A stretch of DNA of 36,502 bases from Methanobacteriota archaeon (GCA_011522915.1 WTIA01000115.1:1-36502); one strand, 5' to 3'. Positions 22,297-27,935 are shown, numbered from the stretch's first letter. Numbers and translations are program-made. Notes: generated from the letters alone by a model not told the origin.

Positions 22297-23115
22297 ATGC
22301 TACCGATGGAGGGCTTGGTGAACTATGTTCTAAACCGGGATTACGGTTGCCGACACATCACTCTAATCGATCCTGGAAAACAAAGCGCAGAGGTTGCAAC
22401 TCGTAGAGCGATTGCAGCGATTGAAGCGGGCTCGAGCATGATATTTGTCGGCGGCTCTACAGATACTCCGGATGAAGTTGTACACGAAACTTGCAAATCC
22501 ATTCAGGACGCATTAGAACTACAGGTGTTTGCATCAAGCCAAGATCCTATGTCAGAAGAAGAAAAATGGAAAATTCCAGTTGTTTTATTCCCGGGCGGAG
22601 CACATGCACTTTCCCCAGCCGCCGATGGCATTACATTCATGATGTTGATGAATTCAAAAATTCGTCGATTCTTAATCGGTGAACAATTACGTGGTGCCCC
22701 TTATCTAGAAAAGTTTGGAGTTGAACCCCTCTCTACTGGCTACCTTGTGTTCTCACCCGGTGGAAAAGTAGGAGAAGTGGGTGAAGCCGAATTAATTGAA
22801 AACGGACAAGAAGAAATCGTCCATTCGTATGCACTAACTGCCAAAATGTTCGGTTTCAAACTACTATATCTCGAAGCAGGAAGCGGGGCATCATCTCAGG
22901 TAGACGCAGAATCGATAAAATCAGCAGCCAAAGTAGAGGAACTTTGTCTGATTGTAGGTGGAGGAATTCGAACCGGGGAACAAGCAGCATTAGCGGCAAA
23001 ATCTGGAGCAAATTGGGTTGTAACTGGAACCTTGACCGAAGATGCTTCAAGCATGGATGAACTAAAGCAAAGAATATCTCAGATAGTAGAAGCGATTCAA
23101 TCCTCGTCTTCGTAG
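22297..23115 (+). CDS. Geranylgeranylglyceryl phosphate synthase
   Basis: This is a 272-aa TIM-barrel prenyltransferase. It joins geranylgeranyl diphosphate to sn-glycerol-1-phosphate, the first committed step of archaeal ether lipids. Family segments are HITLIDPGK near the N-terminus, AGSSMIFVGGSTD, PVVLFPGG, KLLYLEAGSGA and the phosphate-binding loop IVGGGIRTGEQA, followed by GANWVVTGT. The length is typical of the long archaeal group. The start is ATG 22297, one base after the upstream stop; a second Met at residue 3 is possible. The last 19 bp overlap the end of the convergent coiled-coil gene. This is one of the best markers that the organism is an archaeon. Confidence 0.95.
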   Translation: MLPMEGLVNYVLNRDYGCRHITLIDPGKQSAEVATRRAIAAIEAGSSMIFVGGSTDTPDEVVHETCKSIQDALELQVFASSQDPMSEEEKWKIPVVLFPGGAHALSPAADGITFMMLMNSKIRRFLIGEQLRGAPYLEKFGVEPLSTGYLVFSPGGKVGEVGEAELIENGQEEIVHSYALTAKMFGFKLLYLEAGSGASSQVDAESIKSAAKVEELCLIVGGGIRTGEQAALAAKSGANWVVTGTLTEDASSMDELKQRISQIVEAIQSSSS

Positions 23116-24389
23116 AGAACAGGATCTCCAGTTCCACCTGGCGATTCAGGTCTAGCTTCCTTTGGGACATCCATTCCTTTCTCGATTACTTCTAATGCCG
23201 TATCTAGGTCTACAGTGCCACCTTCAGCCAACGTTTGCATATCTTCAGCAGTTGGTGCAGAAATTGTTCTTTCAACATCGGGTGCGTTAGAATAAATTTC
23301 CCTTCTCAATTCTCTTTCATCGTGATTACGAACTAGAGAAAGCGAATCTGCAAATACGCGTCCGACAACTTCCCTGGTTCTTTCAGTACGCTTAACACCA
23401 TCCAATTGGTTAACCGCAGTGTCTCTTTGAGCTTCCAACTCTCTAACTTCAGACGTTCTATCTGTTAGGGCAGCCTCCAAGTCACCTATCGTTAGTGACA
23501 TCTGTTGGATTCTCTCATCTCTCTCGAAGACATCGTTGTGTAGCCGCCTCTCTCTTCTCCTCAGAGATTCATATTCTCTGTTTCTTTCAAGCAGGCGCCT
23601 CTTCAATTCTTCTATCTGCTCTACAAGATAATCGTGCTCTGCTGAAACAGATCTTGGCCCCTGCATTACTCTCTCGAGTTGTTCTTCTAATTCCGCTAAA
23701 CGATTGTCTCTAGCATCGAGAAGTCCACGAAGCCTGTCTGCAATATCTCTCAGCCTTTGCCTCTCTTCCTCAAGGGCATCATTTGCGGCCTTTTCAGCAT
23801 CTAAATCTCCTGCTAATGCATCTGCCTGTGCTTTTAGTGCACGAACTTCGTCAGCTGTTACGCTGGTTAAACCAGCATCAGCCGCCCTCTCTAGGGCTTC
23901 GACCATCTGAGACATACGCCCTTCCATTTCTGCGATAACATCATCTTGTTGAGTTGTTAATTCTCGTAATTGAGAAGCCTCTTTTTCTAATGCTTCTCTC
24001 TCCTCGGCCGACATACTTGAACGATTTTCATCCAATTCTTTTCTAGTATCATCGAGCAATCTCTCTAAATGGACGATTCTTGCACTAGACTCTTCGATTT
24101 GACTTTCTGCAGCCTTTAGTTGTGCAACCTCTGGCGCAACCTCGTCTTTGCGCTCAGCCAAATCTAACTCCAAAACCCTCAATCTTTGTTTGGATGTAAC
24201 AAGATCTTCGTTTCTATCAGCGAGTTCTTGCCATGCAACTAGTACCTCTTCTACCAGTTGGTCAACGGGGTAAGCGCGCAGCATTCCCTCTAGAGCTGCT
24301 CGCTCATCACCACTCGAATCAGTCATGCGACGGATGCCACCTGGAGTCTCAGCGCCGAACGTCATTGAGGCCAATCGCACATCAACCAT
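23097..24389 (-). CDS. Long coiled-coil protein, putative partner of actin-like filament
   Basis: This is a 430-aa protein of unknown family. Roughly residues 50-320 are heptad-rich and highly charged (for example ELEEQLERVMQ, EEIEELKRRLLERNREYE-type segments), which predicts a long parallel coiled coil. A short, possibly globular N-terminus comes first (ALEGMLRAYPVDQLVEEVL). The C-terminus is acidic and Pro/Gly-rich and probably disordered. There is no membrane segment or catalytic motif. A GGTTG element precedes ATG 24389. It lies 50 bp downstream of the MamK-like actin gene on the same strand. Genes for filament-binding coiled-coil proteins commonly sit next to actin-like genes, so a tether, cross-linker or polar organiser is plausible, but this is inferred. 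It overlaps GGGP synthase by 19 bp at its 3' end. Confidence 0.8.
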   Translation of the reverse strand: MVDVRLASMTFGAETPGGIRRMTDSSGDERAALEGMLRAYPVDQLVEEVLVAWQELADRNEDLVTSKQRLRVLELDLAERKDEVAPEVAQLKAAESQIEESSARIVHLERLLDDTRKELDENRSSMSAEEREALEKEASQLRELTTQQDDVIAEMEGRMSQMVEALERAADAGLTSVTADEVRALKAQADALAGDLDAEKAANDALEEERQRLRDIADRLRGLLDARDNRLAELEEQLERVMQGPRSVSAEHDYLVEQIEELKRRLLERNREYESLRRRERRLHNDVFERDERIQQMSLTIGDLEAALTDRTSEVRELEAQRDTAVNQLDGVKRTERTREVVGRVFADSLSLVRNHDERELRREIYSNAPDVERTISAPTAEDMQTLAEGGTVDLDTALEVIEKGMDVPKEARPESPGGTGDPVLYEDED

Positions 24390-24439
24390 TCTTCAACCTT
24401 TCATTGGTCACAGGGCCCTTCAGCCCTATTGTGGGACCT

Positions 24440-25444
24440 TCAGTTGATTGCGGTATATTGCTCATCAGGCATGTCTTGAGCCAGTGCCATTGCACCGGTT
24501 GCGACCTTTTCGATTGGGTCGTCAACACATGTCACAGTTACATCTCCGATGTCTGCAATATCATTTGCAACGGCGTCTGCGATGCCTTCGATAAGAGAAC
24601 CGCCGCCGGATAGGATGATGTTGTTTCTTAGAATTGGTTGGTATTCAGGGTCTGCAGATGCAACAATAGTCTTGATTGCAGCACCGACCTTTCCAACAAC
24701 CATTGAACAAGCAGCCTTGATTAAGTCACCAATGTCAACAACTTGCTTCTTTCCTTCAACCGATAATTCGACCATTTGTTCACGGTCGTCTCCGTTGACG
24801 TAGGAAAACTCTTCTTTCCACTTTCGAACCATATCTTTGGTGACTTGTGCTCCGGTGTACTTCTTCTGAACTAGTTCCATAAGTTGCAGATCAATCCAAT
24901 CTCCAGCTTCCTGAATAGTCAATTGGTCTTCTTCGGTCGGGAAGATACCGTAAAGTCGCGCAATGTCGGTAGTACCTGCACCGATATCAACACATATTGA
25001 ACCAGAAATTTCTCCAATACCATACGCTGTTGCGAATGGCTCTGTTACGACCATGATTGCGTTGACTTGTCCACGAAGTGTAGCAACTAGGTTGCTCTTA
25101 TCGGTGAATGAAACGTGGGATGGAGAACAAATTACTCCGAAAACCTCGTCGTAGTCTTCAGGACCAACAGTCTCGATTAAGTGAGTAACGAACGCCTTTG
25201 CTGCTGCAAGGTTTGCCTCATCGTCTTGAGTAACACCAGCTGCCATTGGGCGGTATAGGTTACATGCAAGTTTGTTCTTCAATGCATCATTTCCAAACAA
25301 TACGTCGCGGCCTAGGAAATTTCTTGCGACCGGGTCCTTTGGACGACCAACAACGGTCTCGATAGTTTCTAGCGAACCTGCGCTACTTGCAATTGTAGAT
25401 TGGTATGTTCCCAAATCAATTCCAACATAGAGTCTTTCTCCCAT
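24440..25444 (-). CDS. Actin-like ATPase, MamK/MreB superfamily
   Basis: This is a 334-aa protein. Phosphate-1 motif GIDLGT (8-13), catalytic-Glu motif EPFATAYG (135-142), phosphate-2 motif DIGAGTTD (153-160) and adenosine motif LSGGGSLIEG (279-288) define the actin fold. Compared with MamK as I remember it, several blocks are unusually close: GRPKDPVARNFLGRDVLFG, the EEDQ...AGDWIDLQL segment, RNNIILSGGGS and the tail GAMALAQDMPDEQY. MamK polymerises into ATP-dependent filaments that position magnetosomes. No magnetosome gene is present here, so another cargo or a cell-organising role is likely. A GGTGAG Shine-Dalgarno site precedes ATG 25444. The coiled-coil gene follows 50 bp downstream. 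The fold is certain; the MamK-like subfamily is well supported by eye. Confidence 0.92.
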   Translation of the reverse strand: MGERLYVGIDLGTYQSTIASSAGSLETIETVVGRPKDPVARNFLGRDVLFGNDALKNKLACNLYRPMAAGVTQDDEANLAAAKAFVTHLIETVGPEDYDEVFGVICSPSHVSFTDKSNLVATLRGQVNAIMVVTEPFATAYGIGEISGSICVDIGAGTTDIARLYGIFPTEEDQLTIQEAGDWIDLQLMELVQKKYTGAQVTKDMVRKWKEEFSYVNGDDREQMVELSVEGKKQVVDIGDLIKAACSMVVGKVGAAIKTIVASADPEYQPILRNNIILSGGGSLIEGIADAVANDIADIGDVTVTCVDDPIEKVATGAMALAQDMPDEQYTAIN

Positions 25445-25520: not shown

Positions 25521-27575
25521 TCATTCTTCCTCGATAAAAGGAGGCGGAACGTCTGTAAACACTCGTTTTTCAAAACCTCTAAACATTGCACCAGCCGCCA
25601 CAATCACTCCCATTATAATCCCGATAACACCTATCACTAATGCCCTATTTTGTTCGGTTTCACTCTCTTCCATAACCGGCTGGTTTTCGTCATCATTTTC
25701 AAGCAAAGGAGAAACCCACCATATTGAGAAATTATTACTGGTGTAAATTGCGATATTTGGGCTTGTCCAAACGGATGAATTATTGTCCGCAACCAGAACT
25801 TCAAACCTCCAATCAAGGCGGTTAACAGGTCTAGGAACCAAGTCCTTTGCAATATTGATTTCACAGGTTGTATTGATTTGTGAATGTGCGATTAATGCAC
25901 AATCTGATAGATCGATAGAAAAGTTCGTATTATTCAATCGAATTGCAAGCACAAAACCATCACCCTCGTTGTCGACGACGTTCACTGAGATTGAGAAATT
26001 ATTAGAATAATTTTCACCACCTACTGGGCCTTGTAAAACCGAGATTGAAGGAGCGCTATTTTGACTCAAGTTCTCGACCCCTGTAGCTATCAAGCCGAAA
26101 CCAATTTTGTCACCCTCAATACCCAACATGCCTGGGTTACTACCATTGTACAAATCATTTGCAATCACTTCAACCTTGACCCATTCCAAACCATTTACCT
26201 CAGATGCAGGTAGGCGAACCATCACAGTTGTTTCATTCGTTGAATTATACGAAAGAGGACTAGCAAACGACTCGTAGTACATTTGGCTATATCCAGAACT
26301 TCCAATATCGTCATCGATTGCAAACCTGCCATCTGAAGTATGCACGACCAATCTCAAATCATCGATGTCATAGCCGTGTGGCCTAGCGTTGTAGGACAAT
26401 ACAACCTCAATATCCTCACCATTAACCGGAGAGAAATACTTGCTCCACGATTCGTTTTCAACAAGGAATGGGCCACTAGCTCCCGCACCATCCCAAGGAT
26501 TGGAAATGAGATTGCTCATATTTCCGCCACGTGCACCCAATACATCGGTCCAATCTTCAATAAAGTAAGAATCGTGAGCAAAATATCCGTTCTCAAAAGA
26601 ATCGAGCGACGGCCTTCCATAACCCTGCATTCCATCTGGGGCCTCACCAGTTATTCCGATTGCAGAGGCTGCCAACATGGCCCGTAGAAGCGGAGCAGAA
26701 GGGGTGTATCCATATTCATCTTCAATCAGTTGTTGAAGGAGGGCGGTGAAAGAGGCCGCCATCGGTGTAGCCATAGAGGTTCCAGTCATTGGAAGAGAAT
26801 CGTTGTTCATACTGTCCACGACGCCGTCGGCCTTTGCCGAGACGATAGACATACCAGGGGCAGCAACAAAAGTTCCTCTTCGATTATTGATGTCAGGTCC
26901 ATGTGAACTACTAGGCCACAAACTACCATTTTCTTCACCGTCACTTGCTGCAACCGAAACAACGTTGTAAGCGTTGGATGGTTCGAGCATCACACCGCCA
27001 GTATTTCCAGGAGCAACAAAGACAAGCGACCAAGGATTCTCAATCGTATATCTATCGATCATCTCGCTCCTTTCGGTATAATTTTGGGAATTATCCCCCC
27101 ACGACCACGAGTTAATTACGGCGCCAAATTTTGCCGACTCTTCCAACAAGGTAGTTACATCCTCTGGTGCTTGCCATCCTTCCGAATCAACAATGTCTTG
27201 GACAACTAATTTTGCGCCACTAGAAATCGAAGTCATATCCCCCTCGCCATCAACTGGGTTGCATGCTAAAATTCCAGCGATGTGTGTGCCGTGCTTGAAT
27301 TGTTGATGTCCTTGAGTATCCCAATCATCGACCGAATCATTCATGTGCACGATTTTTCGATGGCCATCTCCTGGAATTCCAACATCTAAGGTTGAATTTC
27401 TGAAACAACTGTGGTCCATGTCTATTCCAGTATCCGCAACGGCGATTATAACGCCACTACCATCTAGGTATGCAAGACTAGATTCCTCTTCAACGAACAT
27501 CACATTTTCCGACGCTATAACTGGATTCACCATGCAAACCACTAATCCAAAAATTAGCAGTATTGCGCCTCGCAT
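25521..27575 (-). CDS. Secreted, membrane-anchored subtilisin-family serine protease (S8)
   Basis: This is a 684-aa protein. An N-terminal signal peptide (GAILLIFGLVVCMVNPVIAS) is followed directly by the S8 domain. The catalytic Asp is in VADTGIDMDH (Asp48), His in KHGTHIAG (His95), the oxyanion Asn in VAPGNTGG (Asn191) and Ser in MTGTSMATPMA (Ser267). An extracytoplasmic region of about 300 residues follows, rich in Asn/Ser and N-x-S/T sites, with beta-sandwich-like segments. A C-terminal membrane helix (ALVIGVIGIIMGVIVAAGAMF) is followed by a short charged tail. The protease is thus tethered to the cell surface facing outward. It probably degrades environmental protein, in line with the M28 and S15 enzymes nearby. 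It lies 76 bp upstream of the actin-like gene on the same strand; no functional tie is evident. Confidence 0.94.
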   Translation of the reverse strand: MRGAILLIFGLVVCMVNPVIASENVMFVEEESSLAYLDGSGVIIAVADTGIDMDHSCFRNSTLDVGIPGDGHRKIVHMNDSVDDWDTQGHQQFKHGTHIAGILACNPVDGEGDMTSISSGAKLVVQDIVDSEGWQAPEDVTTLLEESAKFGAVINSWSWGDNSQNYTERSEMIDRYTIENPWSLVFVAPGNTGGVMLEPSNAYNVVSVAASDGEENGSLWPSSSHGPDINNRRGTFVAAPGMSIVSAKADGVVDSMNNDSLPMTGTSMATPMAASFTALLQQLIEDEYGYTPSAPLLRAMLAASAIGITGEAPDGMQGYGRPSLDSFENGYFAHDSYFIEDWTDVLGARGGNMSNLISNPWDGAGASGPFLVENESWSKYFSPVNGEDIEVVLSYNARPHGYDIDDLRLVVHTSDGRFAIDDDIGSSGYSQMYYESFASPLSYNSTNETTVMVRLPASEVNGLEWVKVEVIANDLYNGSNPGMLGIEGDKIGFGLIATGVENLSQNSAPSISVLQGPVGGENYSNNFSISVNVVDNEGDGFVLAIRLNNTNFSIDLSDCALIAHSQINTTCEINIAKDLVPRPVNRLDWRFEVLVADNNSSVWTSPNIAIYTSNNFSIWWVSPLLENDDENQPVMEESETEQNRALVIGVIGIIMGVIVAAGAMFRGFEKRVFTDVPPPFIEEE

Positions 27576-27665: not shown

Positions 27666-27935
27666 ATGCAAGCCTTCCGAGTATCCGGCACAGCACCTTT
27701 CGGTAGCCAGCGACAAAAGTTCAACATGGACATTGTAGCTAGTTCAGTGGACGATGCAGAACACCGCTGTTATTCCATTATTGGTTCACGACACAAAGCA
27801 AATCGCCGTGCAATCCAAATCGATTCTGTAAAAGAAATAGACCCGCGCACCTCAACCGAACCTATGGTAATCAATGCGTTTAGGGATCAAATTGAAGCCG
27901 CAGGCGGTCCTATAGCGCCTACAGAAGAAGAATGA
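27666..27935 (+). CDS. rplX: 50S ribosomal protein LX (L18a/L20a family)
   Basis: This is an 89-aa protein. It begins MQAFRVSGTAPFGSQRQKF, contains DDAEHRCYSIIGSRHKANRR and has an acidic tail. Length and pattern match archaeal LX, the counterpart of eukaryotic L18a, which binds the large subunit near the 23S/5S region. It opens a plus-strand row with prefoldin alpha and ftsY, an arrangement found in many euryarchaea (LX-pfdA-ftsY). That context strongly supports the assignment despite the short length. ATG 27666 is the first in frame and fits the conserved start. Confidence 0.9.
   Translation: MQAFRVSGTAPFGSQRQKFNMDIVASSVDDAEHRCYSIIGSRHKANRRAIQIDSVKEIDPRTSTEPMVINAFRDQIEAAGGPIAPTEEE

Follow-up and report, generated by a model that had tools for sequence, protein, structure and literature searches.

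What does an actin of the MamK type do in an archaeon with no magnetosome gene in view? MamK-type filaments have so far been studied mainly as magnetosome organisers, and the question arises from the window (the whole stretch of 36,502 nucleotides of archaeal DNA that was analysed), where a MamK-like actin gene is followed by a gene for a coiled-coil protein. An earlier note had read the two genes as a filament system serving to position some cargo, to give shape or to set polarity. No account of a MamK-like actin in Poseidoniales was found in a literature search whose coverage leaves out most subscription papers, and the ten best-ranked papers on Marine Group II (MGII) are without mention of MamK.

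Layout of the locus

The host genome belongs to the Poseidoniales (Marine Group II), since records named Poseidonia or "Euryarchaeota archaeon" carry actins 65–82% identical to that of the window, mostly with the coiled-coil gene after them. The actin gene (actin 1; 24440..25444, minus strand, ATG start), characterised by ORF reading, profiles, a tree and a structure search, encodes 334 residues. It is separated by 50 bp (24390..24439) from the start of the coiled-coil gene (23097..24389, minus strand, ATG start), which encodes a predicted rod of 430 residues. Both ORFs, their order with the actin upstream and their spacing are exactly as the earlier note had placed them, and the full set of nucleotide-site motifs that it noticed is present: VGIDLGTYQS (GIDLGTYQS at residues 8–16), VDIGAGTTD (152–160) and SGGGS (GGGS at 280–283).

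Directly upstream of actin 1 lies the gene of a secreted S8 subtilase (25521..27575, minus strand), whose membership in the system is uncertain; the minus-strand order is thus subtilase, actin 1, coiled-coil. The end of the convergent GGGP synthase gene (PcrB family; 22297..23115, plus strand) overlaps the end of the coiled-coil gene by 19 bp and provides a synteny anchor outside the system. The other edge of the compared locus, opposite GGGP synthase, is marked by a small conserved gene (27666-27935), which on reading is presumably ribosomal L18a/eL20-like. A Pfam scan of the six nearest neighbours yielded no recognisable magnetosome gene, in line with the earlier note.

Family placement of actin 1

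Among the NCBIfam models, actin 1 scores highest with MamK (NF040964; 329.6 bits, E=2e-98, below the curated cut-off of 400), followed by BeeR (210.5 bits, below the cut-off of 530) and MreB (77.7 bits, below the cut-off of 293), while the ParM profile gives 16.8 bits. Both salactin profiles also stay below their cut-offs (PF25229, 25.5 against 27.1 bits; NF053533, 32.1 against 400 bits). The broad Pfam family MreB_Mbl is matched above its cut-off (79.4 against 27 bits), and the eukaryotic-type Pfam Actin model reaches 43 bits, far under the MamK score. The best solved structure is likewise MamK (5jyg, E=2e-60, 33.5% identity), ahead of BeeR (5e-37, 32% identity) and then MreB (1e-12), so that the resemblance to MamK over MreB recognised in the earlier note is borne out by profiles and structures alike. 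Residues E135 and D153 of actin 1 align with E143 and D161 of MamK, which we take to be its catalytic Glu and Asp, and their equivalents are kept in all 28 aligned Poseidoniales actins, bar one masked residue.

A tree of 65 rows (IQ-TREE, LG+C20), which included 21 MreBs and no crenactin, Ta0583, ParM or salactin, separates a clade of MamK, MamK-like and BeeR proteins, Poseidoniales actins included, from the MreBs at 100/100; a branching with MreB, named in the earlier note as speaking against its reading, was not obtained. The clade also holds bacterial MamK-like proteins from planctomycetes, acidobacteria, Omnitrophota and Desulfobacteraceae. The Poseidoniales actins are sister to MamK plus this bacterial MamK-like group, on a joint branch supported at 95/90, and BeeR branches outside. 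The MamKs of Magnetococcales, SAR324 and 5jyg form their own clade, in which the Poseidoniales actins are not nested. With this position outside the magnetosome MamKs, a score below the family cut-off and no magnetosome gene in view, "MamK-like" is the right term and "MamK" the wrong one: actin 1 represents a lineage that is sister to the MamKs of bacteria.

The separation from MreB also bears on whether the system could be a cell-shape or envelope scaffold with an MreB-like role. Such a role would suit an actin-fold filament protein whose gene adjoins that of a membrane-anchored subtilase. However, MreB stands apart in the tree, and MGIIa cells, which have the actin, and MGIIb cells, largely without it, are alike in morphology, both coccoid and under 1 µm (PMC6864105). 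A role in shape, one of those proposed in the earlier note, is therefore disfavoured, and we regard a scaffold of this kind as quite unlikely.

Distribution and linkage with the coiled-coil gene

The actin query matches 172 of the 293 genomes of the class and the coiled-coil query 155; in collated tables, 152 genomes have both and 118 have neither. In most of the 20 genomes with an actin and no coiled-coil, actin 2 alone (described below) is found, which fits an actin-1 locus missing from incomplete assemblies. Of the three genomes with a coiled-coil and no actin, two are fragmentary and the third has a short form of the protein. An apparent absence of actin 1 in G024 (genus g15) is probably an assembly gap, because the subtilase breaks off at the end of a contig and GGGP synthase opens a different one; actin 2 and its partner were likewise not found in this genome.

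Outside the Poseidoniales, a phylum-wide draw of 293 genomes gave a MamK-like actin in one genome only. This lone case (G357, L213:7128-8225) comes from a 5-Mb bin with 7% contamination, carries an N-terminal extension and branches with magnetosome MamKs; it is perhaps a contaminant. A second, weaker match (G483, family f5; L214:5014-6045) is MreB-like and falls inside the bacterial MreB clade.

Twenty loci from 15 genera were read in detail. Actin 1 and the coiled-coil gene are adjacent, at 15–109 bp, in 15 of them, and inserts of 0.5–3.9 kb part the two genes in four more; altogether, the pair lies on the same strand within 4 kb in 19 of the 20 loci, and the linkage in most relatives that the earlier note had looked for is thus found. 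In a close relative (G061), the product of the insert is 1229 aa long and contains Ig-like (He_PIG) domains (L067:5255-8944); three other genomes have different inserts. The single unlinked pair belongs to genus g9, where the coiled-coil gene is about 62 kb off or on another contig. Gene order outside the locus has been reshuffled, but the pair has stayed together. Purifying selection is very strong on both actins (dN/dS 0.014 each) and strong on the coiled-coil (0.034), which rules out chance. Since the actin does not group with MreB and the coiled-coil gene is linked in most relatives, a filament system is the best reading of the locus.

All 20 loci have the subtilase gene immediately 5′ of actin 1 and co-directional with it, including where the coiled-coil lies elsewhere; its linkage to actin 1 is thus the more constant of the two. 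Its product has a transmembrane anchor at the C-terminus with a short inner tail, and it is conceivable that subtilase, actin and coiled-coil form one unit in which the filament clusters membrane-anchored surface proteases. Against this, the subtilase ranges from 684 to 1381 aa, evolves under a dN/dS of 0.107, about eight times the actin value, and has an inner tail that shows no conservation between genera in the loci read, so that the tail was rejected as a conserved docking motif. Protease clustering is therefore held to be highly improbable.

The constancy of the locus can also be set against the distribution of motility genes. Archaellin and the actins occur together in nearly all genomes of the window's family (f1), and all MGIIa have been reported by Tully to carry motility genes (PMC6336850), as would be expected if the filament positioned the archaellar motor. 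Yet surveys of archaellin (PF01917) and ArlJ reveal a double dissociation: ArlJ is missing from six g17 and two g22 genomes that carry the actin system, whereas g14 and g21 have ArlJ and archaellins without the actin. The archaellum was consequently rejected as an obligatory cargo and is an unlikely cargo altogether; the polarity proposed in the earlier note, understood as archaellum positioning, is contradicted as a general role, and a function in archaellum placement appears very unlikely.

A second actin and its zinc-ribbon partner

Another contig of the same genome (G000:C137) carries a MamK-like paralog, actin 2 (L002:1474-2499), 46% identical to actin 1, and a gene for a partner protein (L002:2597-3685). 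Actin 2 is found across the same genera as actin 1 and, in nearly all loci read, lies downstream of this conserved protein of about 330–360 aa. The partner gives weak zinc-ribbon and TerB matches and has a strongly conserved middle domain (NGFDGGEEIRLEYPG...); structural searches returned weak matches for its fold, none of them confident (best E=1.2e-3, TM 0.22). It is present in all four tested actin-bearing genomes of family f2 and was not found in any of the ten tested genomes without actin. In the 65-row tree, actin 1 and actin 2 each form their own clade at 100/100, and their joining is weak (80/28). In one single-contig genome, actin 2 is split over two frames (G002:C1:1175435-1176456, L083), either through an error in sequencing or because the gene is truly disrupted.

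The coiled-coil protein

The coiled-coil protein is predicted to be a rod of six helices (residues 26-39, 42-82, 86-125, 128-171, 179-242 and 248-368), in a featureless model of low global confidence, with a very low pTM, on which no binding surface is visible. Two regions stand out. The N-terminal head (residues 24-82; 24144..24320, minus strand) bears the motif LRAYPVDQLVEEVLVAWQEL..., and the conserved core (residues 244-300; 23490..23660, minus strand; GPRSVSAEHDYLVEQIEELKRRLLERNREY...) is a candidate actin-binding module. In a comparison between the two families, the core (about residues 241-300) is 79–92% identical, against 3–73% for the other blocks, and is thus the best-conserved part of the protein. 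Neither the full protein nor the head nor the profile has a confident Pfam or PDB match. NEMO, SMC and the crescentin rod were rejected as identities, their weak matches being those of generic coiled coils, as was a DivIVA-like head, for which there was no such Pfam match among the families listed.

In ParM systems, the actin gene has an adjacent adaptor gene. The present layout resembles this arrangement, and SMC models give weak scores for the coiled-coil; the filament might then move chromosomes with the coiled-coil as its adaptor. However, actin 1 hardly matches the ParM profile, the coiled-coil has no recognisable DNA-binding domain, and the locus is chromosomal and vertically inherited, with a clade that has lost it and survives. 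A ParM-like role in DNA segregation is accordingly considered unlikely.

An actin-less clade that retains the head

In a tree built from five concatenated neighbouring genes, the tested genera without actin (g12, g13, g14, g16 and g21) form one clade (98/95) that arises from within the second family, amid genera that do bear the actins. On these sequences, the simplest history is that the actins were present in the Poseidoniales ancestor and then lost once. This derived clade has lost actin 1, actin 2 and the zinc-ribbon protein that accompanies actin 2; of the coiled-coil, the C-terminal two thirds are gone as well. At the syntenic locus, there is no subtilase and no actin, and a coiled-coil gene of 130–165 aa sits in unchanged orientation between GGGP synthase and the equivalent of the small conserved gene (L098:6148-6570; L099:10759-11253; L100:9125-9592; L101:4552-4950; L102:4979-5434). 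Run against 762 ORFs, a profile of the N-terminal part finds exactly these short ORFs in all five loci (E=7e-22 to 3e-5), and a profile of the core has no match. The head profile is positive in 24 of 31 actin-less genomes. Coiled-coil alignments can inflate homology, and it is synteny that backs the short homologs.

Because the actins and the core are lost jointly while the head stays, the retained head suggests a linker, with the head on an actin-independent structure and the core on the filament. The joint loss is compatible with a module lost whole. It most likely happened only once, on one branch of a lineage whose genomes are smaller, so that the co-occurrence of actins and coiled-coil is statistically non-independent.

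These observations also weigh on whether the coiled-coil is simply a neighbour with a job of its own, as an SMC-like or chaperone-like rod, with no physical link to the actin and an adjacency inherited as synteny. The persistence of the N-terminal part without any actin, the unlinked genes of g9 and a weak, though generic, similarity to SMC coiled-coil profiles are what such a separate function would lead one to expect. On the other hand, the core and the C-terminal two thirds are missing exactly where both actins are missing, the core is the region conserved best, and the pair holds while its neighbours are rearranged. A separate job thus seems rather improbable, and the sequences point to a rod-like protein that probably connects the filaments with another component of the cell.

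Proposed mechanism

We consider that there is about an even chance that the locus belongs to a MamK-type actin system of the Poseidoniales, carried on the chromosome and passed on vertically, in which the rod acts as a linker tethering a head-bound structure. Given homology and the conserved catalytic residues, actin 1, and probably also actin 2, would polymerise with ATP into cytoplasmic filaments; members of the MamK/BeeR clade with solved structures form such ATP-dependent filaments (PMC11929497). The rod core and the C-terminal half (residues ~160-360, core 244-300) may hold actin, either as filament or as monomers, and the N-terminal head (24-82 and the next helices) may grip an anchor or cargo that is also present in actin-less cells. 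From the binding of core to actin and of head to structure, it would follow that the filament system positions or tethers, within a small coccoid cell, the structure bound by the head. Of the two-gene filament system first proposed, the filament part stands as the best reading, and the restriction to two genes does not, given the second actin with its partner, the linked subtilase and the head found without actin.

Comparison with known systems

Actin 1 shares with MamK (5jyg, 5ljv; NF040964) a full-length actin fold, the catalytic Glu/Asp and the lack of an N-terminal extension, and coiled-coil genes are also found near MamK in deep-branching magnetotactic bacteria; it differs in being a widespread chromosomal gene of an archaeal order, with a paralog and no magnetosome genes in view. 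BeeR of Verrucomicrobiota (8r2n) is a precedent for MamK relatives without magnetosomes in bacteria (PMC11929497), but its disordered N-terminal extension of 30–50 aa is absent from actin 1, which starts directly at the actin fold. Two Desulfobacteraceae loci have a MamK-like gene followed by long coiled-coil ORFs (L141:7487-11720, L150:7634-10477); this layout is an independent instance, and phmmer found no homologs of the Poseidoniales coiled-coil among the ORFs of bacterial MamK-like loci.

Among systems studied by experiment, Desulfovibrio magneticus is the nearest parallel: its magnetosomes are organised by two actins (MamK and Mad28) together with several coiled-coil proteins, with interactions seen in two-hybrid assays (PMC12748827). 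Two MamK-type actins and a coiled-coil in one cell are common to both, but D. magneticus has several coiled-coils and magnetosomes, whereas the Poseidoniales have one coiled-coil and no known magnetosomes. Among archaeal actins, the haloarchaeal salactin is nearest MamK in published trees, so that archaea outside the Poseidoniales also have relatives of MamK (PMC10746226); it belongs to another archaeal lineage, and actin 1 scores poorly with its profiles. Crenactin is likewise an archaeal actin reported to be encoded near coiled-coil regulators, the arcadins (PMC5173319); actin 1, for its part, matches MamK far better than it does eukaryotic-type actins.

Implications

Many of the commonest archaea of the surface ocean bear two actins related to MamK, one of them beside a long rod-like protein. 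With two paralogs and a modular linker in coccoid archaea, the role of a MamK-type actin without magnetosomes becomes directly testable, and the clade that kept the linker head after losing the actins is a natural experiment pointing at the cargo. It is possible, though somewhat short of probable, that these genes constitute a new cytoskeleton made of two divergent MamK-type actins, possibly in a mixed filament, with a modular linker to an order-wide structure kept in the actin-less lineages. If so, these tiny, coccoid and uncultured ocean archaea would possess a filament-based intracellular organiser, an archaeal cytoskeleton not described before.
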